Below, one piece after another: positions 1 to 40,264 of a stretch of DNA of 48,077 bases. The position numbers and the translations under genes were made by a program. The DNA comes from Thermodesulfovibrio sp. (GTDB lineage Bacteria > Nitrospirota > Thermodesulfovibrionia > UBA6902), in assembly GCA_026982355.1 (NCBI GenBank), contig JALSHG010000095.1, forward strand, positions 1 through 48,077. The letters are read 5' to 3'. The notes beneath the pieces were generated by a model. The model saw only the letters and a list, made by a program, of their open reading frames with translations. It searched no databases and was not told the origin of the DNA. Position 1 is the first letter of the stretch; each line of letters starts with the position of its first letter.

Positions 1-319
1 GCTCTGGAAAGATAAACATTGCTCAATCTCTCGGAGATATGGCTGCAAGGGCATACCTGAGTTTGCGTCTCCCCGGTCTCTGAAATACTGACAGCTTTGC
101 CGTCTCTCCAGGCTTTAATCCATACGCCCTTCGACTTTGACGTTTCCGTGAGGGTGTCAGGTCTTGAATCTTGCAATTTCGAGAAGAAACTGATAAAGTT
201 AACTTCAATGTTGCATAAACAGACATATTTGGGAATGAAAATTGTGCGAAAAGTTTTTTGTTTATTCCTTAAACTCTCGGGTTTTCCATATAAATTAAAT
301 TTGCCAAGACTTGCTGCAC
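1..319. other. Left-edge region without a supported gene
   Basis: I see no gene I can support here. Short open frames exist on both strands, but they run through a degenerate repeat end (196-222) and have no convincing start or recognisable domain. A minus-strand frame running off the left edge could be the 5' part of a gene outside the window, but nothing in it is recognisable. Confidence 0.4.
196..222 (+). repeat. Degenerate left end of the dispersed leader repeat
   Basis: The segment contains GTTAACTTCAATGTTGCATA, close to the left-end signature of the repeat family. No matching right end follows, and no plus-strand gene lies downstream, so this is a solo half or decayed copy and an exception to the family's usual position. 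Confidence 0.4.
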
Positions 320-3610: not shown

Positions 3611-3640
3611 AATATTTTCCCGTCTCCCCTGTCCGGCCCC

Positions 3641-3677
3641 TTGCCCGCGGACGGTATTTTATGCCAGTGTAATAAGG
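3641..3677 (+). repeat. Leader repeat, right half
   Basis: The right half of the repeat family: a GCCCGCGGACGG arm, then TTTTATGCCAGTGTAATAAGG. It lies in sense orientation just before the epimerase gene at 3691. Confidence 0.65.
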
Positions 3678-3690: not shown

Positions 3691-4575
3691 ATGAATATCC
3701 TCATCACAGGCGGCAGGGGATTTATAGGCAGGGCACTAAGCAGGGAACTCGGAGGCGCGGGGCACAACGTCGTTGTTACGACAAGACGCCGCGCCTTTTC
3801 AGCGAATGAACTCACGTGGAATCCGCCGGAACTGATCCCGCCGGATACGCTTTCCGGATTCGACGCCGTCGTCAATCTCGCAGGGGAACCCGTTGCGCCG
3901 GGACGCTGGACCGGAGAAAGGAAAAAACGCATCCTGTCAAGCCGCATCGATACCACCCGCGCGCTTGTGCAGTCCATGCAGCAGGCGGAAAAGAGACCGG
4001 GGGTCCTTGTCAGCGCATCCGCCGTGGGCTACTACGGCCCTCGCAATGATGAATACGTTAGTGAAGAGACACCGCCCGGATCGGGCTTTCTCGCGGATGT
4101 GTGCGTGAAATGGGAGGCCGAGGCACTCAGGGCGGAGGCGCTGAATGTGCGCGTGGTGACGGTCAGGATCGGTGCCGTCCTCGGTGCCGAGGGCGGCGCC
4201 CTGCCCCGCATGATCCTTCCCTTCAAACTCTTTCTGGGAGGCCCCATAGGCAGCGGCAGGCAGTGGTTTTCCTGGATACACATTGATGATGTGGCCGGGA
4301 TTATCCGGTTTGCGCTTGAAAACAACCCGGTTTCAGGCCCGGTCAACGCAACCGCGCCGACCCCCGTGACCAACAGGGACTTCAGCTCCGCCCTGGGCAG
4401 GGCACTCCACAGGCCGTCCTGCCTGCCTGTTCCGGGATTCATGGTCAGGCTGATCTTCGGAGAGATGGGGGAGATGCTGCTGACAGGTCAGCGCGTGCTG
4501 CCCGCCGGGGCGCTGAAAGCGGGATACCGATTCAAATATGCCGATCTCCACGATGCACTGAAGGCCATACTCTGA
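3691..4575 (+). CDS. TIGR01777 / SDR39U1 (YfcH) family epimerase
   Basis: An atypical short-chain dehydrogenase of about 294 residues, cytoplasmic, probably NAD(P)-dependent; its substrate is unknown even in well-studied relatives. The N-terminus has the Rossmann motif ITGGRGFIGRAL. 'VNLAGEPV', 'SSRIDTTRALVQ' and 'SASAVGYYG' are hallmarks of the YfcH/SDR39U1 family, as is the C-terminal DUF1731-like part ('PVPGFMVRLIFGEMGEMLL', 'VLPAGALKAGYRF'). I prefer the ATG at 3691 (MNILITGG) to the one at 3682, because the family starts there and a TATAAT box overlaps the upstream ATG. The gene is divergent from the SARP regulator and monocistronic as far as can be seen. Confidence 0.88.
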   Translation: MNILITGGRGFIGRALSRELGGAGHNVVVTTRRRAFSANELTWNPPELIPPDTLSGFDAVVNLAGEPVAPGRWTGERKKRILSSRIDTTRALVQSMQQAEKRPGVLVSASAVGYYGPRNDEYVSEETPPGSGFLADVCVKWEAEALRAEALNVRVVTVRIGAVLGAEGGALPRMILPFKLFLGGPIGSGRQWFSWIHIDDVAGIIRFALENNPVSGPVNATAPTPVTNRDFSSALGRALHRPSCLPVPGFMVRLIFGEMGEMLLTGQRVLPAGALKAGYRFKYADLHDALKAIL

Positions 4576-4713: not shown

Positions 4714-4797
4714 AACCTTAATGTGGCATAAACGGGCGGGGGACGCCGCCGCACTTCCCTGCACGCGGGCGGTGGTTTTATGCCGCTGTAAGAGTAA
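4714..4797 (+). repeat. Leader repeat, long form
   Basis: A full-length copy from AACCTTAATGTGGCATAA to TTATGCCGCTGTAAGAG with an internal GC-rich inverted repeat. It is sense-oriented and ends about 27 bp before the HtrA start. The 249-bp gap between the epimerase and htrA holds no other feature I can support. Confidence 0.8.
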
Positions 4798-4824: not shown

Positions 4825-6294
4825 ATGAAAAAAACGATTTTCCTGTTTCTTATAATTGCCGCGCTGATTGCCGGTTATCTTATGGGTCAGCGTCCGGGTA
4901 TTTTCGGGGATAAGACCTCCGCACCTCCGTATACTTACAATATCCAGATGCCGCAATCGCCCTCGGGGGAAGGCACCGCATTTTCAGACGTCGTCAGGGT
5001 TATCAGTCCTCTCGTTGTAAATATATCAACATCAAAAACGGTCATGAAAAAGGATTCCTCATCCCCCCACTTCTTCGGCGCGCCCCTGAAGGATTTCCTT
5101 GAACCCTTCAACATGCCGAAAAAATGGAAGGAACAGAATCTCGGCTCGGGCGTGCTGGTGTCGCCTGACGGATACATAATAACAAACAACCACGTGGTGG
5201 AAAAGGCCGATGAAATAAAAGTGACACTTTACAACCAGCAGAATTACAAGGGCAAGATAATCGGCACGGACCCCAAGACCGACCTCGCGGTGATAAAGAT
5301 CCCCGCTGAAAATCTTCCAGCCATAAAATGGGGAGACTCCGACGCTCTTATGGTCGGTGAGTTCGTGCTTGCCTTCGGCAACCCTTACGGTCTGGGGCAT
5401 ACGGTTACAATGGGCATAGTAAGCGCCCTCGGCAGGGCGAATGTCGGCATTGCGGACTATGAAGACTTCATACAGACCGACGCCGCCATCAACCCCGGCA
5501 ACTCGGGGGGGCCCCTTGTAAATATCGCGGGCGAGCTGATCGGCATAAACACCGCGATCTTCTCGAGAACAGGGGGCTACCAGGGGATAGGGTTTGCAAT
5601 ACCGAGCAACATGGCCAGATCCGTTATGACCCAGCTTATCAGGAAGGGCAAGGTCACGAGGGGATGGCTCGGGGTGACGATCCAGAATCTCACCACCGAG
5701 CTGGCGGGCGAGTTCGGACTTGAAAAATCGGCCGGCGCCCTTGTCACCGACATATTCCGGGGAAGCCCCGCCGAAGAGGCACACCTGAAAAGGGGTGACA
5801 TAATCCTTGAGGTCGACGGCAGGGAGATCAGGAATGTCGGGGCCCTCAGGAATATAGTGGCCCAGAGCAAGGTGGGAAGCAGGATAAAACTGAAGGTCCT
5901 GAGGGACGGGAAATCTCTCCTGCTCAATGTAACGATTGCGGAATTCCCCCAGGATATAGCCAGCCTGGCACCTGATGAAGAGGACGTTTCACAGGGAGAG
6001 GAAGATATGCTTGCTGGCTTCAGGGTGATGGAGCTTACGCGCGAGATAGCCAAGCAGCTCGGTCTGTCCAAGAACGAGAAGGGAGTTGTAATAGTCAATG
6101 TCGAGCCCTACAGCGCCGCCGAGGATGCGGGGCTCAGAAAAGGCGATGTAATCCAGGAAATCAACAAAAAAAGGGTAAGAGGCCTGGATGACTTCAACAG
6201 GATAGTTCCGGGCATAAAAAAGGGGGATACTGCACTTCTTTTCATCAACAGGGGCGGTAACAAGCTGTATGTTACCCTGAAAATTTATTCTTAG
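4825..6294 (+). CDS. DegP/HtrA (Do) family periplasmic serine protease
   Basis: A protein of about 489 residues with an N-terminal signal or anchor helix (4-21), so the protease is periplasmic or membrane-tethered. It belongs to the S1C trypsin-like family of envelope quality-control proteases. The triad is visible: His123 in TNNHVV, Asp153 in KTDLAVIK and Ser227 in GNSGGP. Two PDZ domains follow (about 280-375 and 395-485, each with a 'GLRKGD'/'LKRGD' turn), as in DegP/DegQ. An acidic linker near 380-390 separates them. GGAGGT lies 16 nt upstream of the ATG, an unusually long spacing; no in-frame alternative start exists because stops intervene. The gene is preceded by a long leader repeat and followed by a decayed repeat and the PIN-TRAM gene. 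Length and architecture are standard; DegP, DegQ and DegS-like cannot be told apart here. Confidence 0.95.
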   Translation: MKKTIFLFLIIAALIAGYLMGQRPGIFGDKTSAPPYTYNIQMPQSPSGEGTAFSDVVRVISPLVVNISTSKTVMKKDSSSPHFFGAPLKDFLEPFNMPKKWKEQNLGSGVLVSPDGYIITNNHVVEKADEIKVTLYNQQNYKGKIIGTDPKTDLAVIKIPAENLPAIKWGDSDALMVGEFVLAFGNPYGLGHTVTMGIVSALGRANVGIADYEDFIQTDAAINPGNSGGPLVNIAGELIGINTAIFSRTGGYQGIGFAIPSNMARSVMTQLIRKGKVTRGWLGVTIQNLTTELAGEFGLEKSAGALVTDIFRGSPAEEAHLKRGDIILEVDGREIRNVGALRNIVAQSKVGSRIKLKVLRDGKSLLLNVTIAEFPQDIASLAPDEEDVSQGEEDMLAGFRVMELTREIAKQLGLSKNEKGVVIVNVEPYSAAEDAGLRKGDVIQEINKKRVRGLDDFNRIVPGIKKGDTALLFINRGGNKLYVTLKIYS

Positions 6295-6370
6295 CCTGAA
6301 GGTTGCATAAATGAGCACGGGCAGAGGGGCCCCGGCTTCACCTGCCGGCGATATTTCCTGCGGCCGGACG
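6295..6370 (+). repeat. Probable decayed leader repeat
   Basis: GAAGGTTGCATAA near the start resembles the left end, and a GGGCAG...CTGCC arm pair follows, but the right-end signature is lost. It lies in the sense direction before the PIN-TRAM gene. Confidence 0.3.
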
Positions 6371-6399
6371 GTTAAAATAAAACCAAAAAGGACGGTCAA

Positions 6400-7404: not shown

Positions 7405-7433
7405 TCCTTTGCGGCAGCCCTCCGGTAATGTTT

Positions 7434-7525
7434 TCCTTAATGTTGCATAAGCCGGCAGGGGAGTCCGGCGTAAAACCTTCGGCCTCTCCTGCCCGCAGGC
7501 GGTGTTTTTATGCCGCTGTAAGGTT
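7434..7525 (+). repeat. Leader repeat, long form (best type copy)
   Basis: A near-consensus copy. The left end is CCTTAATGTTGCATAA; the inner arms are GGCAGGGGAG and CTCTCCTGCC; then a GCAGGCGG block and the right end TTATGCCGCTGTAAGGTT. The outer ends are imperfect inverted repeats of about 18 bp. It is sense-oriented and ends 28 bp before ispD. Confidence 0.9.
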
Positions 7526-7553
7526 TTTTTGCATTTTCAAGAAGCAGGATGAA

Positions 7554-8273
7554 ATGGAGAATGAAATAACCGTCATAGTCCCTGCTGCCGGGGCAGGGAG
7601 AAGATTCGGTTCACCAGAGGGAAAAATCTTTGCCGTAGTGCGCGGGCTTCCGCTCCTGGCGCACACTCTGAAGAGACTGCACAGGGAAGAAACCGTCACG
7701 GAGATCATCCCCGTGCTCAGGCAGGAGGATGCCGGCAGGGTGTTTGACATGGTCAGGGAACTCAACCTGTGCAAGATACGCCGGATCGCCCCCGGAGGCC
7801 GGGAAAGACAGGACTCCATATATAACGCACTGAGACTCATCGAAGACGGCGGAGCCGGCCGGACACGCGACATGTTCATCATGGTGCATGACGGCGCAAG
7901 GCCGGTTGTTCCCGAAAACACGCTGGATGACTTGCTGAGGGAGATGGAAACCGCGGACGGCGCCGCTCCAGGCATTGCCGCACGTGATACGCTGAAGGTG
8001 GTCTCCGAAGACGGCATTGTCGTATCCACACTGGAGCGCGGCCGTGTGCGGGCAATACAGACTCCGCAGCTTTTTCCCTTCGGCATCATCAAAAAGGCGT
8101 ATGATGCGGCTTACACGGAAGGCTTTTATGCAACGGACGACGCCGCCCTTGTTGAAAGGATGGGCGGCAGGGTCAAAATCATTGCCGGCAGCCTTCTGAA
8201 CATAAAGGTCACGACACCGGAGGATATCGACCTTCTGGAGCACATCCTCTCAAAGGAGGAGGGCCTGCCTTGA
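7554..8273 (+). CDS. ispD: 2-C-methyl-D-erythritol 4-phosphate cytidylyltransferase
   Basis: A cytoplasmic enzyme of about 239 residues in the MEP isoprenoid pathway; it transfers CMP from CTP to MEP. The nucleotide-binding signature VPAAGAGRRFG is at the N-terminus, with further family motifs 'GGRERQDSIYNAL', 'VHDGARP' and 'QTPQLF'. The ATG at 7554 is chosen because AGGATGAA precedes it and the family begins there; the longer frame to 7428 merely translates the leader repeat. The stop codon overlaps the ispF start, indicating translational coupling. Confidence 0.96.
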   Translation: MENEITVIVPAAGAGRRFGSPEGKIFAVVRGLPLLAHTLKRLHREETVTEIIPVLRQEDAGRVFDMVRELNLCKIRRIAPGGRERQDSIYNALRLIEDGGAGRTRDMFIMVHDGARPVVPENTLDDLLREMETADGAAPGIAARDTLKVVSEDGIVVSTLERGRVRAIQTPQLFPFGIIKKAYDAAYTEGFYATDDAALVERMGGRVKIIAGSLLNIKVTTPEDIDLLEHILSKEEGLP

Positions 8274-10140: not shown

Positions 10141-10782
10141 CTACGCCGGAAGGTGGAGCCTCTGATTCAGATGCTCAAGGTGCAGTGTTAAAAATTCAAA
10201 ATCATCGATATCATCCACGTCATACCAGAAGGGAAGCATGGACAGCCTGATGCCGGTCCGCTTTATGCCCTTCAGTATCATGCTCACGTCCCTGCCCGTA
10301 TCCAGACTGATGTTGCGGAAGACGGTGTTTATTTTTTCCTTCCTTGCGCCGATCAGATACAGACCCTGGTCAAAGCACGGCCCTATGACGAAATCATTCC
10401 CCTGGAGATTCAGAAACGCCTTCCTGATGAAATCCACCGGCATGGAAGGGCTGTCGCTTCCTATCAGGACGATATGGGTGTAGCCTTTTGCGGCGCAGTG
10501 TTTAAATGCATTGAATATCCTCTCCCCGAGGGTGTCCCCGCGCTGATTGAATGTGCTCATGCCGTAGGTCTTTGCAATGTCCTTCAGAAAGGCATGGTTT
10601 TTTGAAGGGGCGCAACCCAGGAACCTGTCGATCCCCCTGAGCCGCGCGCACCGTGAGATGACTTCCGTTACGAAAGCCTTGTACACCTCAACGGTCTTTC
10701 CGGCCCCCATGTCCGCCTGCAGCCTTGTCTTGACCGTGCCTGGCACAGGGGCCTTTACAAAGGTGATAAGGGCTTTTTTCAT
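10141..10782 (-). CDS. TIGR04282 / DUF2064 glycosyltransferase-like protein
   Basis: A protein of about 213 residues. 'FVKAPVPGTVKTRL' at the N-terminus, 'QRGDTLGERI', 'IGSDSPSMP' and 'GPCFDQGLYLIG' are the conserved motifs of the GT-A-like family annotated as arsenosugar biosynthesis or 'family 2A' nucleotidyl/glycosyltransferase. Donor and acceptor are unknown; the arsenosugar name comes from one pathway and should not be assumed here. The ATG at 10782 follows TGTAAGGATAAC, in which the Shine-Dalgarno is the right end of a leader repeat. It is convergent with the QueG-like gene; the 148-bp gap between them shows a CCACCTT/AAGGTGG stem but no clear U-tract. Confidence 0.85.
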   Translation of the reverse strand: MKKALITFVKAPVPGTVKTRLQADMGAGKTVEVYKAFVTEVISRCARLRGIDRFLGCAPSKNHAFLKDIAKTYGMSTFNQRGDTLGERIFNAFKHCAAKGYTHIVLIGSDSPSMPVDFIRKAFLNLQGNDFVIGPCFDQGLYLIGARKEKINTVFRNISLDTGRDVSMILKGIKRTGIRLSMLPFWYDVDDIDDFEFLTLHLEHLNQRLHLPA

Positions 10783-10787: not shown

Positions 10788-10833
10788 CCTTACAGCTGCA
10801 TAACATCGCCTGCCGGCTTATGCAACATTAAGC
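10788..10833 (-). repeat. Leader repeat, short form
   Basis: A 46-bp copy lacking the inner GGGGAGTCC hairpin: in minus sense, CTTAATGTTGCATAAG, a short CCGGCAGGCG core, then GCAGCTGTAAGG. It abuts the start of the DUF2064 gene and supplies its ribosome-binding AAGG. Confidence 0.85.
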
Positions 10834-10905: not shown

Positions 10906-10970
10906 AACCCTTACAGTTGCATAGAATACCGGCGGACTCCCCTGCACGTTTATGCAACATTAAGGCAACC
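10906..10970 (-). repeat. Leader repeat, intermediate form
   Basis: A second copy in tandem with the one at 10788-10833 and in the same orientation. It begins just after the stop of the PAS/GAF gene. Ends are TGCCTTAATGTTGCATAAAC and GCAACTGTAAGGGTTG in minus sense. Confidence 0.85.
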
Positions 10971-10974: not shown

Positions 10975-13092
10975 CTACTCTCTCTCCAGCACGGCGCCGT
11001 CCATGTATCTCATTATGTCGTCATAGTCCTTCTTTGACTTTTCATACATGATTGCATTTTCTATGGCTGTGCCGCACTGTTCGGCGAGCGCGGCTGCAAA
11101 GCCGATCTCCTGCTCCGAGAACCTCCTCGGCTCCCCTGTAAGCAGCCTCAGTACCCCGAGGACCTTGCCCCTTGCAACAACAGGGAGGGTGAGCATGCTC
11201 TTGATCCCCTCTTCCGCGGCCTCTTTCTTGTACTTGATCTTGTCGTCCGTTGCAACATCGTATATGGCCACGGGCTTTTCATTGAGCGCCTCGATTACGT
11301 TTTCCTCTGTGTCCACAGGCCCCCTGTTCAGGTACTTTTCACTCAGGCCGTATGCCGCGGCGAGTATGAGCTTCTTCCCTGTATGGTCCAGGAGGCGTAT
11401 GGTGGCCGCCTTCAGGCCCATCACCTCGGGGATCTTCCTCACGATCATGTCAAGCACCTCGTTGGCGCGCAGTGTGGAGCTGACGGCCTTCGTGACCTCC
11501 TGAAAGACGGAGAGGTATTCCTTCTCCTTGGATATCTCCTTTTCAAAGTGCTTTGCATTTACAATGGCTATCGCCGTCTGTTCGGCTATCGCCGACATGA
11601 ACCGCAGGTCTTCTTCGCTGTATTTCCTCGGCCTCGTCGTGTACAGCCTGAGCACCCCCATCACCTCGTTCTGAAAGCGCATGGGAATGGAGAGAATGGT
11701 GCGGATGCCCTCCTCCACAGCCTCTTTGTAATACCTCGAGTCCCTGTGCTCTGTTATGTCGTACTCCGAGACGGGCTTGCCGGCGAGGGCGTCGTCAATG
11801 CTTGCATCACAGGCGACAGGCCCCTTGTTGGCGTATTTTTCGCTCAGCCCGTAGTATGCAACCAGTTCCAGTTGCCGTGTCTCCCTGTTCAGAAGGCGCA
11901 GCGAACCTCCCTTCAGGTCCATCACCTCGGGGATTTTCCTGACTATCATGTTCAGGACTTCCTTTACATTCAGTGTGGAGCTGACCGCCTTCGTGATCTC
12001 TTCAAAGACCCTGAGATACTCTTTTTCCCTTGAAACCGCGCTTTCAAACCGCCTGGCGTTTACGATGGCTATTGCAGCCTGCTCGGCCAGGGCCGACATG
12101 AACTTGAGGTCATCGTCGGTGTATTTCACAGGCTCGCTGGTGTACATCCTCAGGACCCCGATCACTTCATCCTTGAAACGCAGGGGAATGGACAGTATGC
12201 TCCTGATGCCCTCTTCTATGGCCTCTTTGTAGTACCTTGAGTCCCTGTGCTCCGTGATGTCGTATACAGAGACGGGCTTGCCGGCGAGGGCGTCGTCGAT
12301 GCTTGCATCATAGGCGACAGGCCCCTTGTTGGCGTATTTTTCACTAAGGCCGTAACACGCGGCGAGCTCCATCTGTTTCGTCTCACTGTTGAGGAGCCTG
12401 AGAAGGCTTGCCTTGACATTCATGACTTTTACAACGTTTGTCACTATAAGGTGCAGGACTTCGTCCGTGGAGATGCTGGAGCTTATGGCCTTGCAAATAT
12501 TCTGGTAGCTCTCGAGGTAGACCTTTTTCTCGAATATCTTCTCCGCGCACGAGGGGCACATGCCGTGCGTAAAGATACCGAAGCCCTCATTCGTGAGATA
12601 TGTCTCAAGCTGTTCCCAGTAATTTTCATCGCTCCTTATCTTCTTGCACCACCCGCAGATGGGGATCAGCCTTTCCCTTTTTTCGGCCTTTATCCTGTTT
12701 GCGGCTGTTTCTATGCAATCCGAGATATCCCTGAGAGTCACGACGGCCCCCGTTATCTCGCCGCCGTTGAAGACCGGCGAGGCATTCTCTTCAACGGGTA
12801 TCTTTCCGCGGCCCGTTGCATCAAGGAAGAACTGTTTGCTTACGGCCCTGTTTTCACGCATGCAAAGTTCGGCCGGGTACTCGAAGTGCCGGAGCCTGTT
12901 CCCGCGCGCATCTTCATATCCGATATTCACCTTGTCAAGCGGCATGCCGGTCACTTCACCGGGGGCGAGACCCGTCAGGGAACCGGCCGCCCTGTTCCAG
13001 AACAGGATTTTCCGGTTCCGGTCGACAAGGTACACCCCGTCCGTCATGTTGTCGAGTACCTGGCGGTAAATTTTCCGGTTCCAGCTCAGCAT
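10975..13092 (-). CDS. PAS + triple GAF sensor protein without output domain
   Basis: A soluble protein of about 705 residues. A PAS domain (about 8-125) is followed by a Cys-rich linker ('ICGWCKKIR' ... 'CPSCAEKIF', about 144-185), often seen after PAS domains in signalling proteins and possibly metal-binding. Three tandem GAF domains follow (about 195-350, 360-520, 530-690) that resemble each other closely: 'YGLSEKYANKGPVA' and 'DITEHRDSRYYKEA' recur. No kinase, GGDEF, EAL or HTH is present, and the C-terminus is a short helix. It probably senses a small ligand or redox state and acts through a partner. The downstream genes on this strand are DUF2064 and nothing regulatory; the diguanylate cyclase at 13250 is immediately upstream, with a GAF domain of its own. 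The start ATG follows a leader repeat (TGTAAGG 13 nt upstream). Confidence 0.85.
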   Translation of the reverse strand: MLSWNRKIYRQVLDNMTDGVYLVDRNRKILFWNRAAGSLTGLAPGEVTGMPLDKVNIGYEDARGNRLRHFEYPAELCMRENRAVSKQFFLDATGRGKIPVEENASPVFNGGEITGAVVTLRDISDCIETAANRIKAEKRERLIPICGWCKKIRSDENYWEQLETYLTNEGFGIFTHGMCPSCAEKIFEKKVYLESYQNICKAISSSISTDEVLHLIVTNVVKVMNVKASLLRLLNSETKQMELAACYGLSEKYANKGPVAYDASIDDALAGKPVSVYDITEHRDSRYYKEAIEEGIRSILSIPLRFKDEVIGVLRMYTSEPVKYTDDDLKFMSALAEQAAIAIVNARRFESAVSREKEYLRVFEEITKAVSSTLNVKEVLNMIVRKIPEVMDLKGGSLRLLNRETRQLELVAYYGLSEKYANKGPVACDASIDDALAGKPVSEYDITEHRDSRYYKEAVEEGIRTILSIPMRFQNEVMGVLRLYTTRPRKYSEEDLRFMSAIAEQTAIAIVNAKHFEKEISKEKEYLSVFQEVTKAVSSTLRANEVLDMIVRKIPEVMGLKAATIRLLDHTGKKLILAAAYGLSEKYLNRGPVDTEENVIEALNEKPVAIYDVATDDKIKYKKEAAEEGIKSMLTLPVVARGKVLGVLRLLTGEPRRFSEQEIGFAAALAEQCGTAIENAIMYEKSKKDYDDIMRYMDGAVLERE

Positions 13093-13105: not shown

Positions 13106-13200
13106 TACCTTACAGCGGCATGAAAATACCGCCTGCGGGGCAGGGGGAGCCGGAGGTTTTACGGCGGACTCCCCTGCCCGGCCTATGCAACATTATGGTT
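13106..13200 (-). repeat. Leader repeat, long form
   Basis: A complete 95-bp copy with strong inner arms (GGGCAGGGGAGTCCG against CGGCTCCCCCTGCCC in minus sense). It ends 14 bp before the PAS/GAF gene start, in sense orientation. Confidence 0.9.
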
Positions 13201-13249: not shown

Positions 13250-14635
13250 TCATTTTGCAGCATACACTATGTTTTTTGTTAAAAACTTGCCGTGGTACAT
13301 GGCGTCGTCCGCAATCTTCAGGAGGTCATCCTTGTTGTCTGCATTGTCGGGATAGGATGCCACCCCGAAGCTCGCCGTCAGCCTGATGGGGTAACCTTCG
13401 TCTCTAAGGAAGACGTTCTTCTCTATGGCCTTCCTGAGCCGTTCAGCCACCAGGAAACTTGCATCCAGCGAGGTCTGGGGCAGGATTATTACAAACTCGT
13501 CCCCGCCGTAACGCGTGATTATGTCGATCTTCCTCAAGCTGTTCTGAAGCAGCCTGGCTATCTCGACAAGCACCCTGCTGCCGATAAGATGGCCGTACTT
13601 GTCGTTTACCTTCTTGAAATTGTCAAGGTCCATGAACACCAGCGAGAACATGGAGCGGTACCGCCTCGCCCTTTCGATCTCAACGTCGATGGCATGGTTG
13701 AGATAATGAATATTATAGAGATTCGTAAGATCATCATTTTTGGTTTTCCGGTAAAGGAAGGTCCGCTCTATGGCGATATTGATAAAATTCGCCGCATTCA
13801 GAAGCAGCTTCATATGGTCTTCAGTGAACGGGTTGCCGCCTCTGCCGTTGATCAGCCTCAATACGCCGACAACGTCCCGGTCCTTCATCCTCAGCGGCGC
13901 GCAGATCAGGGACTCCACCTCGATGCCCGGAAAGCTGTCCGTCTCTCTGTCAAAGCGCCTGTCCTTCAGCACATCGCGCACGATTACGGGAACGCCTTTA
14001 TCCAGCACCCATCCGGCAATGCCGGTTTCTTTTTTGATTTTAAGTTTCCGGATTTTTTTTGAAGAACGCAGAGGTATTATGTCAAAAAGCGGGTCGCTGT
14101 CAAGCAGCAGCGACCATGCGCCGGCGCCGGTCATAAGGCGTACCTTTTCCATTATGTAATTCAGGCATTTCTTCAGCCCCTGTGATGCAACCAGTTCGGT
14201 TGAGACATCATGGTAAAATTTCAGTTCTTTTTCCCCGTCTCTCAGTTGGGCCTGAAGGCGCCTGTTTTCGTCATCCACGCTCCTGATTTTCAGAAGCTTG
14301 TCGGTCCAGTATTTGAATGTCCTTAATGAAAAAGGCGCGGGAAGGGGTATTGCAAGCATGTCTCTGACGGGCGGACTGTTGTATTTCGGGGTATCCCCGC
14401 CGGTTAAAATAATTTTCGGGGCGGCGGCCGCCAGCCGCCTGAATTCCCCTGAAGCAGCGGCCTCGGAGGCAAAGCGGCTTCCGAGCACTATCAGGTCTAC
14501 AGCATTGTTTCTCAGGCAGGAAACGGCTCCGTCGATATTCCGTCTTGTTATCAGGAAGTAATCTTTGCCGGAGAGTGACTTTTCAAACTCAAGGACCGGG
14601 GAATCATTCCCGTCTATCAGCAGTATCTTACGCAT
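13250..14635 (-). CDS. GAF-GGDEF diguanylate cyclase with receiver-like N-terminus
   Basis: A protein of about 461 residues. The N-terminal 110 residues resemble a degenerate receiver (ILLIDGND start, 'DLIVLGSRF' where a phospho-acceptor would lie, with Gly rather than Asp following the strand), so phosphorylation is doubtful. A coiled linker leads to a GAF domain (about 145-290) and a GGDEF domain (about 305-455) with '[10 protein letters not shown]' and an intact RYGGDEF active site. It should make c-di-GMP from GTP. The start ATG overlaps the secA stop by 8 nt, so it is probably translated from the secA transcript. An I-site RxxD upstream of GGDEF is not obvious; the preceding residues are '[11 protein letters not shown]'. 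Confidence 0.9.
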
Positions 14636-17306
14636 TAATTCCGCAGCACTTTTTGTATTTCTTTCCGCTTCCGCATATGCAGGGGGCGTTTCTGCCTATC
14701 TTCTTGTCTTTTACGACAGTCTGCGGCCTGGCGCTTTCTCCCCGGTTTCCGCGGCCGTATATCATCCTTGCAGGCTTCGGCGCAAATTGCCTTTCCACCG
14801 TATCCTCTCTGGCAATCTGGATCTTCATCAGTCTCGCGACCACTTCAGAGGCAACCCTGTCGCTCAGCTCGGCGAATATCTCGAAGGCCTCCCTTTTGTA
14901 CTCCACAAGCGGGTCCCGCTGGCCGTACCCCCTGAGGCCCACTCCTTCTTTCAGGTGGTCCATGCTCAGCAGGTGGTCTTTCCACTGTGTGTCCACCACC
15001 TGAAGGAGAACCATCTTTTCAAGGTACCGGAAGGTGTCGGGCCCGATCTCCTGCTCCTTGGTTTCGTACGCCTGCTTTATCTCGTCAAGGAGCCTGGCGC
15101 GAAGGTCCTCGAAGTCCATCACCTCCAGCTCAGGGTAGATGGCGAACTGGCCGTAAATCGCATCCCTGAGGGTTTTCAGGTCCCATTCCTCGGGATGCCG
15201 GTTTTCGGGACAGTGCTTGGAGAGCATATCATCGAGGACATTCTCCGCCATTTCCAGAATCCTGTCCCTGACATTTTCGGATGTGAGTATCTCCCGCCTG
15301 AAGGAATATATCTCGCTTCTCTGCTTGTTATTGACGTCGTCGTATTCAAGCAGGTGCTTTCTTATGTCGAAGTTATGCGCCTCCACTTTTTTCTGGGAGG
15401 TCTCTATCGCCCTGCTCACCCACTTGTGCTCTATGGGCTGGGAGTCTTCCATGCCGAGCTTGCCCATCAGGCCCGAAACCCTGTCCGAGCCGAATATCCT
15501 CATGAGGTCGTCTTCAAGCGAGAGATAGAATCTTGAGGAACCGGGGTCGCCCTGCCTTCCCGAGCGCCCTCTTAACTGGTTGTCTATCCTCCTTGACTCG
15601 TGCCTCTCGGTGCCGAGTATATGCAGGCCTCCGGCTGCCACGACTTTCTCCCTGTCCTTCTCGCATATCTCCCTGGCCTTCTGCAGGGCCCTTTCGTATT
15701 CTTCCTGCGTATAATCCTTTTTATCCCTGAGCATATCCCTTGCGATGCCCTCGGGATTGCCCCCGAGCACTATGTCCGTGCCCCTGCCGGCCATGTTTGT
15801 CGCGATGGTCACGGCTCCGCTTCTTCCGGCCTGGGCGATTATCTCCGCCTCCTTTTCGTGATACTTGGCGTTGAGCACGGAGTGGGGAATTTTCTTCTTT
15901 TTCAGCATGGCGCTGAGAATCTCCGATTTTTCAATCGATATGGTGCCCACGAGCACAGGCTGTCCCCTTTTGTAGCAGTCTTCAATTTCATCGATGACGG
16001 CATGGAACTTGGCCTTGACCGTCTTGTAAATAATATCCGGGTGGTCCTTCCTGATCATGGGCCGGTTCGTCGGGATTACCAGCACATCAAGGTTGTATAT
16101 TTTCCCGAATTCCTCGGCTTCCGTGTCGGCGGTCCCGGTCATGCCGGCGAGTTTCCTGTACATCCTGAAGTAATTCTGGAAAGTGATGGTGGCGAGAGTC
16201 TGATTTTCGCTCTCTATCTTCACACCCTCTTTGGCCTCTATCGCCTGGTGCAGGCCGTCGGACCAGCGCCTGCCGGGCATAAGGCGGCCGGTGAACTCAT
16301 CGACGATTATCACCTCATTGTCCTTGACGATATAGTCCACGTCCCTTTTAAACAGTGCATGCGCCCTCAGCCCCTGATGGACATGGTGAACCAGCTCGAC
16401 GTTTGCGGGGTCATAGAGGTTGCCCACCCCGAGCAGTTTCTCCACCTTTGCATTTCCTTCCTCGGTCAGTATGGCGCTCTTCGCCTTTTCATCTATCGTG
16501 TAATCCTCTCCCATTTTAAGTTTCGGAATTATCTTGTCTATCCTGTAGTATTTGTCCGTGGACTCCTCGGAGGGGCCTGATATTATCAGCGGGGTTCTCG
16601 CCTCGTCAATCAGGATGCTGTCCACTTCGTCGACAATCGCAAAGTTGAGCTCCCTCTGGACATAATCGTTTATGTGGTACTTCATGTTGTCCCGCAGGTA
16701 GTCAAAGCCGAACTCGTTGTTGGTCCCGTAAGTGATGTCCGCGGCATAGGCGTCTTTCCTGTCCACGGGCTTCAGGTGTTTCAGCCTGCTGTCCTCGGCG
16801 TGGTATGAAGGGTCATAGACAAAGGAAGCGTCGTGCTGGATGATGCCCACGGAGAGTCCGAGAAAATCATATATTGGGCCCATCCACACCGCATCCCTCT
16901 TTGCAAGGTAATCATTGACGGTGATGATGTGCACGCCCCTGCCATCGAGGGCGTTGAGATAAACCGCGAGCGTGGCCACAAGGGTCTTGCCCTCACCGGT
17001 TTTCATTTCGGCTATTTTCCCGTTGTGAAGGGCGATGCCGCCGATAAGCTGCACATCAAAGTGGCGCATCCCGAGCGTTCTCCGCGAGGTCTCCCTCACG
17101 ACGGCAAACGCCTCGGGAAGAATATCGTCCATGCTCTCACCGGCCTGAAGCCTTCTGCGGAACCCGTCCGTCTTCGCCCTGAGCGCGGCATCGTCAAGGG
17201 ATGAGACATGGTCTTCAAGGGCGTTGACCTCCTCAACGACGGACCAGAGCCTCCTGATTTCCCTGTCGTTTTTCGTTCCCACTATTTTCGTCAGAAAACC
17301 GAACAT
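14628..17306 (-). CDS. secA: Preprotein translocase ATPase SecA
   Basis: A protein of about 892 residues, the ATP-driven motor of the SecYEG export channel at the inner membrane. Walker A is in '[11 protein letters not shown]'; the DEAD-like box is '[15 protein letters not shown]'; '[10 protein letters not shown]' and '[10 protein letters not shown]' are further helicase motifs; '[11 protein letters not shown]' is motif VI. The C-terminus carries a zinc-binding SEC-C tail, [14 protein letters not shown]. Length is standard. The ATG at 17306 has no Shine-Dalgarno and sits 8 nt after a TATAAT box (17315-17320, minus strand), which suggests a leaderless or near-leaderless transcript. The diguanylate cyclase gene overlaps its end by 8 nt. 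Confidence 0.98.
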
Positions 17307-17336: not shown

Positions 17337-17390
17337 TAACCATACAGCGGCATAAAAACATCGCCCGCGGGGCGGGAGGGTGTAAGGAAA
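17337..17390 (-). repeat. Leader repeat, right half
   Basis: In minus sense it reads CGCGGGCGATGTTTTTATGC then CGCTGTATGGTTA. The distal (left) end is missing and the histidine kinase stop lies there. It is sense-oriented upstream of secA. Confidence 0.7.
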
Positions 17391-17392
17391 AC

Positions 17393-19114
17393 TCAGGCAG
17401 GCTCTTCATACAGGGGCAGTCTCACCGTGAAAGTGCTTCCTTCACCGGCCTTGCTCTCAACCTCGATCTTCCCGTTATGCTCCATTATGAGGCTGTGGCT
17501 TACCGACAGCCCCAGCCCCGTGCCTTCACCAACGGATTTGGTTGTAAAGAAAGGCTCAAAGATGTTCTTGAGGTCTTTCTCGGGTATGCCGTGTCCTGTA
17601 TCGCTGATCTTCACGAGCACGTTCCCGCCGCCGGCATCCGGCCTGACGCTTACGGTCAGGGTTCCCTCCCCTTCCTTCATTGACTGTATGGCGTTTACGA
17701 TAATGTTGACAAAGACCTGTTCGAGTTTGTTGCGGTCCCCCTTGACATGAAAGGCCCTGTCGGGTATATCCTGAACCAGCTTTATATTGTTGATCCTCAA
17801 TTGATTGGCCGTGAGATTTATTGATTTCTTCACTATCCTGACAATGTCCTGCCTTTCCATGACGCTGGACCGCTTGGCCCCGGCGAAATCAAGCAGGTCC
17901 TGCACGATGCGCTGGGCGCGTTCGCTCTGCGAGAGTATGTCAGTGATATACTCCCTCATGTCTTCCCCGGTGAGGTCTTTCAGGCCGGCCAGCATGGTCT
18001 CGGCGGTGAGTGATATGTTGTTCAGGGGGTTGTTCAGTTCATGGGCGACCCCTGAGACGAGAAAGCCTATCGAGGCGCGCTTTTCAGACTCCACGAGCTG
18101 GGCCTGCTTCTGTCTCAGGAGTTCCACGCTCTGCGCCAGTGATTCCTGCGCCAGCTGCAGGTGATCGAGCATTGTGTTGAAGGATACGGCAAGGTAGTAA
18201 GTCTCATCGTGTTCCCTGAGCGGCGCCCTCAGGCTCAAATCCCCCTCCGAAATCCTCTTTGCAATCTCGGCGAGCCTTTTAATGGGCGCCGCTATGTGAT
18301 TGGCGGTCTTGTATACGAACAGCGGACCCAATGTGCAGAGCAGGCCCAGGGCCACAAGCAGAAGGCGCTGTGTAAGCGTGAGGAAGGCGCTGATCCTCTG
18401 CCTCTCCCGCCTGGCGATTCTCCCGGTGATTCTTTCAAGTTTGTCTCCCGTGGCCTGCAGGTCGTTCACCATCGCATCGCTCTTTCTGTATGTTGCAAAG
18501 AGGCTCCGCAGGGCCCTGATATACGCGATACACTCGTTGCAGAAGTGGCCTGTTTTTTCCAGTTCGGCAAGTTTGCTCTTTAATTTAACAAAGGACTCCC
18601 TGTCACGGAACAGCATGTAGTTCTTTTCCAGGAGCCTCAGGTGGAGGACGAGGTTTATTGAAAGCTCCCCCGTATATTGCCGGTCTGCCGCGAATCTCTC
18701 CAGTTTCCTGCCCTCTTCCCTTACCGTTCCGGTGACTTCGGTTTCCTGCTGATAGTTCCTGTACAGGCTGTCTATGAGGGATGAATATTTCCGAACGGAT
18801 CCTTTCAGCAGTGAAAACTCTTCCCTGCCGATCTCTTCAGCGGTCTCAGGGGATATGCCCCCGATCGAGCTGGTCAGTATCGAGACCGCATCATGTATCT
18901 CCCTGAGATTCTCCTCGTCTTTGTAGCGGAGGAAGTTTTTTTCATTGCGCCGGACCTCCAGAACGTGCTCCTTCAGGTCGTCGGCGATCTGGACAAACTG
19001 CTGCCTGTCCTTGACATCGTTTATGTACTCGTATGTAAGCCCCACCCCCAGGATCGCTATGAGGGACGGCACGGAAATGCCGATGATCATCTTATGCCAG
19101 ATTTTTGATTGCAT
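17393..19114 (-). CDS. Sensor histidine kinase, HBM-like sensor (kinase A)
   Basis: A membrane kinase of about 573 residues. TM1 is about 9-29 and TM2 about 245-268, bracketing an all-helical periplasmic region with two copies of an R-x-x-EKN motif: EVRRNEKNFLRY (53-64) and HLRLLEKNYMLF (158-169). A HAMP domain follows (about 270-325), then a HisKA domain with phospho-acceptor His358 in GVAHELNNPLNN, and a HATPase with 'NIIVNAIQSM', 'DTGHGIP' and 'GTGLGLS'. It is a close paralog of the kinase at 25055. No cognate receiver adjoins it; the lone receiver at 24622 is a candidate partner. The ATG at 19114 has GAGG 7 nt upstream; the longer frame merely translates the leader repeat. Confidence 0.93.
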   Translation of the reverse strand: MQSKIWHKMIIGISVPSLIAILGVGLTYEYINDVKDRQQFVQIADDLKEHVLEVRRNEKNFLRYKDEENLREIHDAVSILTSSIGGISPETAEEIGREEFSLLKGSVRKYSSLIDSLYRNYQQETEVTGTVREEGRKLERFAADRQYTGELSINLVLHLRLLEKNYMLFRDRESFVKLKSKLAELEKTGHFCNECIAYIRALRSLFATYRKSDAMVNDLQATGDKLERITGRIARRERQRISAFLTLTQRLLLVALGLLCTLGPLFVYKTANHIAAPIKRLAEIAKRISEGDLSLRAPLREHDETYYLAVSFNTMLDHLQLAQESLAQSVELLRQKQAQLVESEKRASIGFLVSGVAHELNNPLNNISLTAETMLAGLKDLTGEDMREYITDILSQSERAQRIVQDLLDFAGAKRSSVMERQDIVRIVKKSINLTANQLRINNIKLVQDIPDRAFHVKGDRNKLEQVFVNIIVNAIQSMKEGEGTLTVSVRPDAGGGNVLVKISDTGHGIPEKDLKNIFEPFFTTKSVGEGTGLGLSVSHSLIMEHNGKIEVESKAGEGSTFTVRLPLYEEPA

Positions 19115-19157: not shown

Positions 19158-19209
19158 TTAACCCTGCAGCGGCATAAAAATACCGCCCGCTTATGCAACA
19201 TCAAGGGTT
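19158..19209 (-). repeat. Leader repeat, short form
   Basis: A 52-bp copy with extended ends (TTAACCCT / AGGGTTAA on the two sides). It overlaps the last bases of the PEP-synthase-like gene and lies in sense orientation upstream of kinase A. Confidence 0.85.
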
Positions 19210-21808
19210 AATCATGCACAAAGGAATAATTGCCCTCCAGGAAGGCCCTGACATACCAGTCCTTGGCCTCGATACTGTTGATCGCCATGTCAAGCTGTCT
19301 GGAGCAGCCGAGCAGGCGGCCGAGCATATCGAGCTTGTTTTCGGTCTCCGCCCGTGAAGCGCCCTTTATGCCGGCCAGGACCATATCGCCTTTTATTTCA
19401 ACCCTGAAGTCCATGGACTCCAGGACATCCTTTAGGAACAAGGCCCGGCGGGCCCTCCCCTCGGCACCGGCCCCCCCTCCCTGAAAACGGAGGTTTATGT
19501 AATTGTTTATGTAACTCTCCCCGCAGAATGCATCCACGACAGAGAAATGATACGCCAGTTTCACGCTCAGGTTTATGTACTGGTCGGTTATAATCACGTA
19601 TACCTTGCCGCCTTTTTCCGTAACCCCGGTCCTGACGAAAGACCTTGCCATCACAGAAGCGAGTCCCGCCATGTCGATATCAACCGGGCCAGACCACCTC
19701 ACACCTTCATGTGTCATCCCCCGCCACAATGCCCTGAACGGGATGGATCGGATATGTTCCGGGGAGAGCCTTCGCAGGAACTTGGCCTCATCCACAACCC
19801 CTCCGTCAAGGTCGATGACATAGAAGTGCATGGGAATCCTGTCGGTGACCATCTCCTGGGTATAACCCTCGCCTTCCGACAGCTCCCCGATGCGGAACAT
19901 CTCCTTCACGGAAACCTCGTGGACAAACCGGATAATGTCATGGATGGTCCGGAAGTCCCCCGGGTCTGTCTCGCCTTCCACGATGTTGATGAGGTGAAGA
20001 GGGGTTATGTTTTTCATGACATTTCTTATGACCCGCTCATCACGGCCGTACTGCCCGGCGGGCACGGCCTCCCATCCGGGCAGGGGGATTCCCTCCATGC
20101 GGCCCCTGTAGATGCGGCCGGCGTTTGCATCCACGGTTACAAGCGTCCCTTTGCTGAGCACCCTGATTATGTTTCCGGCATTGATAATCATGGGGATGTT
20201 GAATTCCCTTGCGACCGTGGCAAGATGGCTTGTCCTGCTGCCTGTCTCGATTACAATTGCCGAAGCGGCAGGCATGATCCTTACAAATTCATTGGATGTG
20301 TTCCTGGCAACGAGGACGGCTCCATCGGGAAAGCCGGAAATCTGGTCGAACTTTTCAATGATGTATGCGGGGCCCGATGCGATCCCGCGGCTGGCCGTCT
20401 CTCCCCTGGATAAAACCGTCAGCGTCTCATCGTATGTATCCGGCGCCTCCGCCGTGATGACCCTTTTGATATGGAGGGGCCGGGCCTGAAGTATCATAAT
20501 CCGCCCCTTCTCATCGATCGCCCATTCTATATCCTGCGGTGCCCCGAAATGCCTTTCGATCAGACGGCTGAAATCATAAAGCGTGCGGATTTCGTCATCC
20601 GAGAGACAGGGGGCCTCACGGCTTTCCTCCGGCACGGGGACTTCCGTTACCCCTCCCGGGGGATTCAATACGAGCATGACGTCTTTACGGGAGATTGTCT
20701 TGCTGAGGATTCTGCCGTTCTCCCTCCGGTTCAGTATATACATGTCCGGGGAAACAGTGCCGCTGACCGCATATTGACCCTGCCCCCACACGGCGCTTAT
20801 CATGGTCTCGTCTCTCTCGGGATAGCTGGGATTCATGGTATACAGGACTCCCGATGTTCTTGAGTCGATCATCTCCAGGACAAGCACGCACATGGGAGTG
20901 TCCCTGTCCTTTATCTTTTTTGCCAGGCGGTAAAAGATGGCTCTCATGCTGTATTTGCTTGCCACAACCTCTTTGTATGCATGTATGAGGGATTCCCTTG
21001 TTACGTTCAGTTTGCTGGTGAACTGTCCCGCAAAGGAGACCTTGCCGTCCTCGCCGACCGCGCTTGACCTTACGGAAAAGCCCGGTTGCCTCCCCAGCCT
21101 GTCCGCCTCCCTGCAAACCGCTTCCTCGATCTCCTGCGGCACGCGCGAGTCCATGATCAGACCCTGCAATTCGTCCGAAACCCTCTCGATACCGGCGGTG
21201 TCGTTCATATCCAGGGGGGCAAGGAGGGTATCGATCCTGTCCTCAAGGTGGTTTAAGGATATGAGGTGCCTGTACGCCTTGGCCGTTATTGAAAAGCCGC
21301 GCGGCACGGGCAGCTTCAGTATGTTCCGTATTTCCCCAAGATTGCCTGCCTTGCTCCCTGTATCCTTGAAATGCTCCGACGTTATTTTCGCGAGCGGGAC
21401 CACGAAATCCACGAGTCTCTTCTCCTCTTCCTCACGGAGCAGCGACTCTGTATTCAGCCTGATGCGTTCGAGCACGTCGTAGAGATACATGTACCGGTTG
21501 TCCGCCATATCGTTCAGGCTCTGGATGAATCCGAACGCCGTGTCGAAGATGCGGGAGATATACGAGCGGAAGACCTGGAGTGTTATGGTTTTTGTTTCAA
21601 TCCCCTCCTCTATTTCCGACAGGGTGTCGAGCAGCTCGTTGTTTTTCAGGAGGAGATTCTTGTAACTGTAGTACCTGCTCCTGAGTTTGAGATAGTTGTC
21701 GCCGGGGATGAGCAGGGCGATCTCCGCCGATTCATCCTTCCTGTGAAAAAAGTTCCCGGCCCTTTTCAGGATGCCCCCGGCCTTTTTGATAATGGAATCA
21801 AGTCTCAC
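19208..21808 (-). CDS. PEP-synthase-like phosphotransfer protein 1 (no PEP barrel)
   Basis: A protein of about 866 residues. Residues 1-140 are helical and unassigned. About 145-450 is a PPDK/PEP-synthase ATP-grasp domain: 'GSKAGNLGEI', 'FSVRSSAVGEDGKVSFAGQF', 'DIEWAIDEKGRI' and 'LQARPL'. About 465-575 is the swivelling phosphohistidine domain with His528 in SRTSHLATVARE. In PEP synthase this His carries phosphate from ATP to a C-terminal PEP/pyruvate TIM barrel. That barrel is absent; instead a C-terminal region of about 270 residues is shared only with the neighbouring paralog ('ITPLHLINI', 'IPFRALWRGM', 'YINLSVKLAYHF'). Classical PEP synthesis is therefore unlikely. I infer phosphotransfer to an unknown acceptor. 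It lies between two histidine kinases; the paralog is 19 bp upstream, implying one operon. Confidence 0.85.
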   Translation of the reverse strand: MRLDSIIKKAGGILKRAGNFFHRKDESAEIALLIPGDNYLKLRSRYYSYKNLLLKNNELLDTLSEIEEGIETKTITLQVFRSYISRIFDTAFGFIQSLNDMADNRYMYLYDVLERIRLNTESLLREEEEKRLVDFVVPLAKITSEHFKDTGSKAGNLGEIRNILKLPVPRGFSITAKAYRHLISLNHLEDRIDTLLAPLDMNDTAGIERVSDELQGLIMDSRVPQEIEEAVCREADRLGRQPGFSVRSSAVGEDGKVSFAGQFTSKLNVTRESLIHAYKEVVASKYSMRAIFYRLAKKIKDRDTPMCVLVLEMIDSRTSGVLYTMNPSYPERDETMISAVWGQGQYAVSGTVSPDMYILNRRENGRILSKTISRKDVMLVLNPPGGVTEVPVPEESREAPCLSDDEIRTLYDFSRLIERHFGAPQDIEWAIDEKGRIMILQARPLHIKRVITAEAPDTYDETLTVLSRGETASRGIASGPAYIIEKFDQISGFPDGAVLVARNTSNEFVRIMPAASAIVIETGSRTSHLATVAREFNIPMIINAGNIIRVLSKGTLVTVDANAGRIYRGRMEGIPLPGWEAVPAGQYGRDERVIRNVMKNITPLHLINIVEGETDPGDFRTIHDIIRFVHEVSVKEMFRIGELSEGEGYTQEMVTDRIPMHFYVIDLDGGVVDEAKFLRRLSPEHIRSIPFRALWRGMTHEGVRWSGPVDIDMAGLASVMARSFVRTGVTEKGGKVYVIITDQYINLSVKLAYHFSVVDAFCGESYINNYINLRFQGGGAGAEGRARRALFLKDVLESMDFRVEIKGDMVLAGIKGASRAETENKLDMLGRLLGCSRQLDMAINSIEAKDWYVRAFLEGNYSFVHD

Positions 21809-24521: not shown

Positions 24522-24615
24522 TTACCTTACAGTGGAATAAAAATACCGCCTGCGGGCAGGGGAGTCCGCAGTAAAACCTCCGGACTCCCCTGCCTGTTTA
24601 TGCAATATCAAGGGT
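24522..24615 (-). repeat. Leader repeat, long form
   Basis: A full copy with the strongest inner hairpin: perfect 14-bp arms GGCAGGGGAGTCCG / CGGACTCCCCTGCC. It is sense-oriented upstream of the second PEP-synthase-like gene and begins just after the receiver gene's stop. Confidence 0.9.
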
Positions 24616-24621: not shown

Positions 24622-24996
24622 TTATTTCTGTTTGCTTAATGCACGCTGTATGGACGCCTTCAGCTCCTTTATTTTAACAGGCTTCGGGAAAAAGTCATGC
24701 ACGTCCGACCTCAGTGCCTCTATGGCTGCGTCCAGGTTGGCAAAGGCCGTGATCATTATCACCACTATTTCCGGATACAGTTTCTTAACCGTCCTGAGCA
24801 CCTCCATGCCGTCAATGCCTTTCATCTTGTAGTCCGTCACAATCACATCGAACTTCTCCTCCTTCAGTCTCTCCAGAGCCGGGGCCGCGTTTAAAAAGGT
24901 CTCCACCACATAACCGTCCTGCTCCAGGGTCATCTTTGCCATATCGCCCACGATCTTTTCATCGTCGATAACCATAATCTTATACTGCTTGTTCAT
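24622..24996 (-). CDS. Single-domain response regulator (CheY-like receiver)
   Basis: A protein of about 124 residues consisting of one receiver domain: the acidic pair in VIDDEK (11-12), phospho-acceptor Asp55 in VTDYKM, and the switch Lys in FPKPVK near 105. No output domain is present, so it should work through protein contacts, for example with the neighbouring PEP-synthase-like or MshEN-DUF202 proteins. AAAGGAG lies 8 nt before the ATG at 24996; the longer frame to 25071 only reads the leader repeat. The kinase at 25055 lies immediately upstream on the same strand and is the likely partner. Confidence 0.92.
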   Translation of the reverse strand: MNKQYKIMVIDDEKIVGDMAKMTLEQDGYVVETFLNAAPALERLKEEKFDVIVTDYKMKGIDGMEVLRTVKKLYPEIVVIMITAFANLDAAIEALRSDVHDFFPKPVKIKELKASIQRALSKQK

Positions 24997-25020: not shown

Positions 25021-25074
25021 AACATTACAGTTGCATAAAGTATCGCCTGCCGGCTTATGCAGCATCACCACGGT
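25021..25074 (-). repeat. Leader repeat, short form, providing a stop codon
   Basis: A 54-bp copy whose distal end overlaps the 3' end of the upstream kinase gene: the TAA stop at 25055-25057 is the repeat's own GCATAA-type sequence. The proximal end (TGTAATGTT) is upstream of the receiver gene. Confidence 0.85.
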
Positions 25075-26765: not shown

Positions 26766-26822
26766 TTACCTTACAGAGGCGTAGAATATCGCCGGCGGCG
26801 GGAGAGCCCGGCGGAAAAGCGG
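26766..26822 (-). repeat. Leader repeat, right half
   Basis: In minus sense it ends GGCGATATTCTACGCCTCTG then TAAGGTAAGGA, giving the ribosome-binding site of kinase B. The left end is missing, replaced by an unrelated pyrimidine/purine-rich stretch next to the upstream gene's stop. Confidence 0.75.
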
Positions 26823-26857
26823 TTCCTTCAGGGATAAGCCCCCTCCCCCTGACCCCC

Positions 26858-29687: not shown

Positions 29688-29737
29688 ACATTACAGCGGC
29701 GGTTAAAACATTGCCGGTTTATGCAATATTTAAGGTT
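29688..29737 (-). repeat. Leader repeat, short form
   Basis: A 50-bp copy: in minus sense TTAACCTTAAATATTGCATA, an AACCGGCAATG core, then GCCGCTGTAATGT ending 3 bp before the MshEN-DUF202 start codon. Sense orientation. Confidence 0.8.
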
Positions 29738-29800: not shown

Positions 29801-30190
29801 TTATTTCTTTGAACCGTGCAACTCTTCTTCTGCCCTTAAAATAACCTGCTTGAGTTCGTCAACCTTGAACGGCTTTGCAATAAAGTCGAAGACACCCTTT
29901 TTGAACGCCTCGGTAGCTGTTTCCATCTTTGCAAATCCGGTAATGATAATAACCTTGATATCCGGGTTTTTCTCTCTCGCGGTCTCCAGTATCTTCATGC
30001 CGTCCACGCCTTCCATCTTGAGGTCCGTGACAATGATGTCATAAGCCCGTCTCTCAAGTTCCTGAAGTGCCGGGAGGCCGCTGGTGAAAACCTCCACATC
30101 GTAACCTGCCTTTTCAAAAATCTGCCTGAGACGTTTCCCGACAATCGGCTCGTCGTCTATGATCATCAAGCGGCATCTACTGTCTTCCAT
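29801..30190 (-). CDS. Single-domain response regulator (CheY-like receiver)
   Basis: A receiver-only protein of about 129 residues: acidic pair in IIDDEP (12-13), phospho-acceptor Asp56 in VTDLKM, and Lys in AKPFKVDEL near 107. It is similar to the receiver at 24622. A GAGGTGATGA ribosome-binding region precedes the ATG. It lies downstream of the TIGR02186/TauE operon with a 128-bp gap and upstream of the MshEN-DUF202 pair, so it may belong to either group. No kinase adjoins it. Confidence 0.9.
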   Translation of the reverse strand: MEDSRCRLMIIDDEPIVGKRLRQIFEKAGYDVEVFTSGLPALQELERRAYDIIVTDLKMEGVDGMKILETAREKNPDIKVIIITGFAKMETATEAFKKGVFDFIAKPFKVDELKQVILRAEEELHGSKK

Positions 30191-30202: not shown

Positions 30203-30306
30203 TCACCTTAACCGCTGCATCATGGCATGACTCTTACGGCCTCGCTGAAGATATCGGCAACCGGACAGGCATGACCGGCCCGGCCGCTGATGCAACGTCA
30301 GGTCCG
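30203..30306 (-). repeat. Diverged leader repeat
   Basis: Both ends are recognisable (CACCTTAACCGCTGCAT on one side, GATGCAACGTCAGGT on the other), but the centre differs from other copies. It is sense-oriented upstream of the receiver gene. Confidence 0.4.
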
Positions 30307-40245: not shown

Positions 40246-40264
40246 AAAGTATCAGGAGGAGAAA

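Follow-up and report, generated by a model that had tools for sequence, protein, structure and literature searches.

The 48,077-nt stretch of Thermodesulfovibrio sp. DNA analyzed here (the window) holds about twenty copies, clear or decayed, of a short repeat, and raises the question of why these copies face the same way relative to the next gene. The sequence-only reading of the window offered two answers: a transcribed 5'-leader RNA or a mobile repeat selected by orientation. Our results favor the latter. The family is a non-autonomous miniature transposon (MITE) that has been active recently, is mobile and has ends of the IS1380 type, and its antisense copies are probably removed by selection because they impair the co-directional gene downstream.

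The repeat is bounded by an L end, CCTTAATGTTGCATAA, and an R end, TTATGCC(G/A)CTGTAAGG, and its termini, CCTTAATGTTGCATAA and TTATGCCRCTGTAAGG, form an imperfect 16-bp terminal inverted repeat (TIR), as is characteristic of MITEs; the two ends are dissimilar enough for an orientation to be assigned to each copy. Pairing of L and R ends over greater distances revealed an intact form of 212-214 nt, the interior of which is strongly conserved in an alignment of 34 copies. The copies of ~89 nt, which the sequence-only reading had described as long, and those of 41-80 nt are real repeats, but represent internally deleted versions of this element; every size class has many copies. At a threshold of at most 2 mismatches, the 2.62-Mb genome contains 440 R-end matches, against 4 for a reversed control pattern, so that the copies noticed in the window are present and belong to a family far beyond chance expectation that is short, high-copy and transposase-free, as MITEs are. 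Although an open reading frame crosses the 89-nt form, 1-nt indels among the full-length copies would shift any frame, and a coding function was rejected on these grounds.

Table 1. Copies of the MITE and the transposase fragment in the window
Positions	Strand	Feature	Context
203-218	+	Solo L end, 2 mismatches	
3630-3674	+	Decayed, R end only	Before 3691-4575 (+)
4716-4793	+	Internally deleted, 78 nt	Upstream of HtrA-like protease gene 4825-6294 (+)
6295-6372	+	Weak, L end recognizable	Directly after stop codon at 6294
7435-7523	+	Deletion form, 89 nt, both ends perfect	Upstream of ispD-like gene 7554-8273 (+)
10788-10833	-	Short	5 nt ahead of start of 10141-10782 (-)
10909-10965	-	Short	Just past stop of GAF-domain gene 10975-13092 (-)
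13108-13198	-	Deletion form, 91 nt	Upstream of 10975-13092 (-)
17340-17400	-	R end intact, L end decayed	Upstream of secA-like gene 14628-17306 (-)
19162-19206	-	Short, 45 nt	Between 19208-21808 (-) and 17393-19090 (-)
24525-24613	-	Deletion form, 89 nt	Upstream of 21828-24491 (-)
25023-25070	-	Short	Overlaps 3' end of 25055-26755 (-); upstream of 24622-24996 (-)
26769-26850	-	Decayed, R end recognizable	
29691-29735	-	Short, diverged	Upstream of 28053-29684 (-)
30203-30303	-	Weak, doubtful	Upstream of 29801-30166 (-)
37206-37249	-	Decayed, partial	Directly downstream of the full-length copy
37254-37467	-	Full-length, 214 nt	Between histidine kinase 37418-39004 (-) and response regulator 35814-37166 (-)
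40203-40255	+	Weak	Just past gene 39285-40199 (+), stop at 40199
42087-42160	-	Decayed	Upstream of 40672-42039 (-)
43652-43709	-	Short	Divergent gap, R end 45 nt from start of kinase 42155-43606 (-)
46832-46906	+	Diverged	After gene 45930-46796 (+); convergent gap, no start codon ahead
47226-47564	-	3' fragment of IS1380-family (DDE_Tnp_1_4) transposase gene	Lineage differs from the IS with MITE ends

The best copy in the window, which had been placed at 7434-7525, is real but ends at 7435 and 7523, where it is flanked on both sides by a 4-bp target duplication, TTTT (7431-7434 and 7524-7527). The copy reported to start at 37249 likewise exists, with a full-length extent of 37254-37467, the only such copy in the window; the 3' end of the histidine kinase gene extends into its L end, and the MITE provides the final codons (37418-37467). 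In the genome sample, 12 copies provide the stop codon of the upstream gene as CCT-TAA (offset -6). The claim that all sixteen clear copies face a start codon holds for most of them, the exception being the copy at 46832-46906, which precedes the minus-strand transposase fragment. Two further observations concern genes of the window. Gene 10975-13092 encodes a PAS protein followed by three GAF domains from near-tandem 501-bp DNA repeats that are 64-76% identical, which suggests a recent domain triplication. The protein encoded by 28053-29684 combines an N-terminal MshEN domain with three DUF202 membrane segments, and the neighboring gene 26858-28066 encodes similar DUF202-like repeats.

The flanks of the copies record their transposition. 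Of the 50 copies whose ends are perfect, 23 are accompanied by an exact 4-bp duplication (shuffling predicts 7.1), as are 34 of 85 copies with one end mismatch, but only 3 of 42 in the most diverged group; that is, a TTAA-like target duplication of fixed length, as expected of a MITE, decays with the age of the copy. Matches of 3 or 5 bp between the flanks show no comparable excess. The most common duplications are TTAA (30) and TAAA (16), and the immediate target, WRARTTAAYWYW-like, is roughly palindromic. Moreover, several orthologous gaps are cleanly empty in a sister species (G001) that is ~87% identical to the window's genome over 141 kb aligned, again in keeping with a MITE: for example, the sister reads ...TAAAGAAACCTTC... 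where the occupied site reads ...AAAGAAA, a 78-nt element and GAAACCTTC..., and at L018:18567 the sister carries a single GAAA. The decaying duplications and empty sites demonstrate that the repeat is mobile. Some copies are chimeric, in that both ends are of the R type or both of the L type (L003:19540-19571, L012:1365-1421 and L004:15461-15509), and are perhaps products of recombination or abortive transposition. In the sister species, several copies in orthologous gaps (stretches L099, L096 and L105) contain a nested repeat, GTTCAGAGTTCAAAGTTCGGAGTTAAGGGTGCAGGGTGCAG..., which as far as seen is specific to that species; the gaps behave as layered repeat traps.

A search of the same genome for IS1380-type transposases identified an intact insertion sequence (IS), on stretch L074, that shares the ends of the MITE: an exact R-type end lies upstream of its transposase gene (Pfam DDE_Tnp_1_4, PF13701, E = 3.8e-43), an L-type end with 2 mismatches lies downstream, and the element is flanked by TTAA on both sides. 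Given these shared ends, together with the target duplication and the family of the transposase, an IS1380-family IS is the likely parent type of the MITE, which presumably moves in trans, by means of such a transposase, into TTAA-like sites. No match to the MITE interior is seen in the sequence adjoining the ends of this single intact IS; hence, the claim is limited to IS1380-type ends and does not extend to descent from this IS copy by deletion. A different parent copy is possible. The transposase fragment near the contig end in the window is close in sequence to the transposase of another genome (G002, L156) and shares 24-31% identity with that of the IS with MITE ends, pointing to two IS1380 lineages in the genus.

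Across the 61 genomes searched, only a single genus of the host lineage shows dense amplification of the MITE. At a threshold of at most 1 mismatch, the R end is abundant in the window's genome and two congeners only (355, 281 and 138 matches), whereas each of the 58 genomes outside the genus yields 0-3 matches, the control level. The carriers named in GenBank are the MAGs 'Deferribacteres bacterium M_MaxBin.054' and 'Nitrospirae bacterium S140_38'.

This narrow distribution bears on the possibility that the repeat is a cis-regulatory or processed leader RNA (a riboswitch, attenuator or RNase site) selected for its RNA function, which would be in line with the sense orientation, the R ends close to start codons and the foldable sequence. 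Apart from being confined to one genus, the family has properties that such an RNA would not be expected to show, namely, target duplications and empty sites, and presence in convergent gaps in random orientation. A comparison with Rfam yields no match, either for the window at the gathering score or for a full-length copy at E <= 1. The genes near the copies are functionally unrelated, encoding epimerase, protease, PIN-domain, GAF and histidine-kinase proteins, and the element is not conserved at orthologous genes, being absent from several orthologous gaps within the genus. The consensus fold of ten window copies is weak (RNAalifold, -1.96 kcal/mol), and the stem mismatches lack the strand-specific surplus of G-U relative to A-C that would be expected of selection on a sense-RNA fold: the G-U to A-C ratio is 150:136 for the 89-nt form and 182:244 for the long form, a balance predicted by neutral decay of palindromic DNA. 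A leader-RNA family is not supported, and we regard selection for RNA function as highly improbable.

To quantify the orientation rule, we counted two-ended copies on stretches totaling 1.716 Mb (65% of the genome), in which genes were predicted with a purpose-written hexamer-based gene finder. In tandem gaps, that is, between co-directional genes, 188 copies are in the sense orientation, with the L end after the upstream stop and the R end toward the next start, and 9 are antisense (p = 1e-44). The bias is absolute for copies lying no more than 60 nt ahead of a start codon (110:0) and for those with both neighbors within 60 nt (82:0), is seen on both gene strands (112:3 and 76:6), and is replicated in a second species (22:2). 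It spans the size classes, with sense to antisense ratios of 53:1 for long copies, 70:4 for those of 81-115 nt and 40:3 for those of 60 nt or less; since forms as short as 41-60 nt are no exception, the determinant of orientation probably resides within ~25 nt of either terminus. Where the gap was at most 10 nt before insertion, and the copy thus almost certainly lies inside an operon, the ratio is 13:0. The rule proposed from the window alone is therefore borne out by the genome and a relative, and orientations are far from equal genome-wide; the sense orientation is dominant but not exclusive, given that antisense copies do exist, the two-ended ones in tandem gaps all being separated from the next start codon by 90 nt or more. 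As a control, we used an unrelated ~125-nt palindromic repeat of this genome, which is randomly oriented (11:8), so neither the gene finder nor the gap structure is the source of the MITE bias. This second repeat (CTTGCAAAAGTATGAAAATG...GACTTTTGCAAGAG) occurs at least 37 times in 1.09 Mb, with several copies nested inside the MITE, at sites that include L004:807-1122, L018:17468-17669 and L090:7878-8065, along with many others.

The bias could be produced at the time of insertion, if the transposase fixed the orientation through the transcription bubble, supercoiling or contact with RNA polymerase, with no selection involved, or afterwards, by loss of antisense copies. The ratio of 30:2 already seen in tandem gaps among the copies with perfect ends counts against selection, as it equally fits biased insertion, and directed insertion also agrees with a bias seen in leaders, in the gaps of operons and at 3' positions. 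Among copies in divergent gaps, 31 of the 35 located within 80 nt of a start codon have the R end nearer to it, but only 6 of 15 further away, and the lack of bias far upstream of divergent promoters is compatible with such targeting too. A further comparison involves copies that abut a stop codon. When the next gene is co-directional, the abutting end is L in 107 cases and R in 5; in convergent gaps, it is L in 13 and R in 15 (Fisher p = 6e-9). The adjacent transcribed gene is equivalent in the two settings, and only the dependence of the downstream gene differs, which argues for selection over orientation-directed insertion, as does the roughly palindromic local target. Furthermore, none of the 289 two-ended copies lies inside a gene although 63% of the TTAA, TAAA and TTTA sites are coding, indicating that selection has already acted on the copies that survive, the youngest included; together with the random orientation in convergent gaps, this answers the objection from the perfect-end copies. 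We therefore consider insertion fixed in one orientation by transcription quite unlikely.

Sense copies could also be kept because of a benefit, if insertion were polar in either orientation and an outward promoter at the R end restored expression of the downstream gene. Such a promoter would account for the bias in leaders and operons and for its absence in convergent gaps, the R ends lie within a few tens of nucleotides of start codons, and the Correia elements provide a precedent for MITE-borne promoters (PMC10969869). However, no convincing -35/-10 pair is apparent: the sole recurrent -10-like hexamer, TAAGGT, occurs at the junction of the R end and the target duplication in 105 of 171 cases, inspection of the R-end consensus reveals no good -35 upstream of it, and neither an outward promoter at the R end nor native upstream -10 boxes give a clear signal above shuffled flanks. 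This explanation accordingly appears unlikely, albeit less so than directed insertion. Mobilization by a Y1 tyrosine transposase, as in REP/RAYT-type palindromes, would fit short intergenic palindromes that number in the hundreds but is barely conceivable for a family with a 4-bp target duplication, a DDE (IS1380) element with matching ends and consensus ends that lack a GTAG/CGTC-type tag.

Under the preferred scenario of selection against antisense copies, the element would insert in either orientation, and copies with the R end pointing against a co-directional downstream gene would subsequently be lost, because in a leader or operon gap they would impair the expression of that gene. Sense copies would be tolerated, even in gaps that were once 10 nt or shorter, and orientation would be free where no co-directional gene follows, as in convergent gaps and far upstream of divergent promoters. 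The premise of the sequence-only reading that random insertion would give mixed orientations seems right as far as insertion is concerned but overlooks later selection; its suggestion of a mobile repeat selected by orientation, in turn, agrees with the decaying target duplications, the empty sites, the IS1380 ends and a bias found only before co-directional genes. The harm might consist in blocked transcription or destabilized mRNA. A point against the selection scenario is that tandem-gap copies remain biased even when the next start is over 200 nt away (15:1), which would require action at a distance. Intrinsic termination by antisense copies was considered and rejected: no antisense-specific terminator was found, and a hairpin followed by a U-tract is, if anything, more common on the sense strand. 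A C-rich antisense window (25 C to 12 G), examined as a potential Rho site, is present in the long form only and absent from the 89-nt form, and thus cannot explain a bias common to all forms.

Among known elements, the Chunjie MITE of Geobacter uraniireducens is comparable in size (178-235 bp, with TIRs and direct repeats, in about 38 copies plus 57 partial ones) and, according to a review, also combines full and partial copies that are intergenic, with insertion within an operon (PMC10969869); the present family differs in its several hundred copies and its host, and the review gives no orientation rule. The likeness to the IS1380 family, the prokaryotic group that serves as the outgroup to piggyBac (PMC10813416), comprises the TIR starting with CC, the TTAA-like 4-bp duplication and the same 16-bp ends as the IS with the DDE_Tnp_1_4 transposase, whereas the MITE has no transposase gene and an interior not derived from that particular IS copy. 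ERIC sequences are small palindromic mobile repeats as well, are co-transcribed in operons and exert an orientation-specific effect on transcripts, with a putative RNase E site in one orientation (PMC3049150, PMC2229807). They are thus a precedent for effects of this kind (PMC3049150), but have TA at the termini and another parent element, unlike our family with its different ends and 4-bp duplication, and no near-total orientation lock is described for them in the literature found (PMC3049150, PMC2229807). The Correia/NEMIS elements of Neisseria resemble the family in often lying immediately upstream of genes and in having long and internally deleted size classes, but have TA termini and an unrelated sequence, can carry promoters and undergo RNase III cleavage. 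BOX, RUP and SPRITE of Streptococcus pneumoniae are high-copy, intergenic, MITE-like repeats that overlap stop codons (PMC3049150); those repeats are over-represented in convergent gaps, and their leading-strand share of 61-63% merely mirrors the coding bias (PMC3049150), in contrast to the highest density in tandem gaps and the ~95% sense orientation observed here. The apparent lack of precedent for a near-total orientation lock, in a limited search of open-licence literature, is a lead rather than proof.

Bacterial MITEs themselves are common; what is unusual here is a family of several hundred copies with an orientation locked at about 95% to the following gene, yet random in convergent gaps, next to an unbiased control repeat. 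The family documents a high-copy MITE with IS1380-type ends, from a group akin to piggyBac, and makes selection on small operon insertions countable, with the pair of ~25-nt ends as a testable directional element. A bolder interpretation, which we put forward only tentatively and consider improbable, is that the MITE acts as a one-way transcript device, with passage from L to R unaffected or helped and passage from R to L silencing what follows, or else that its insertion is steered by the direction of transcription. If either were true, the genome would offer several hundred natural replicate inserts for studies of polarity or of transcription-coupled transposition.
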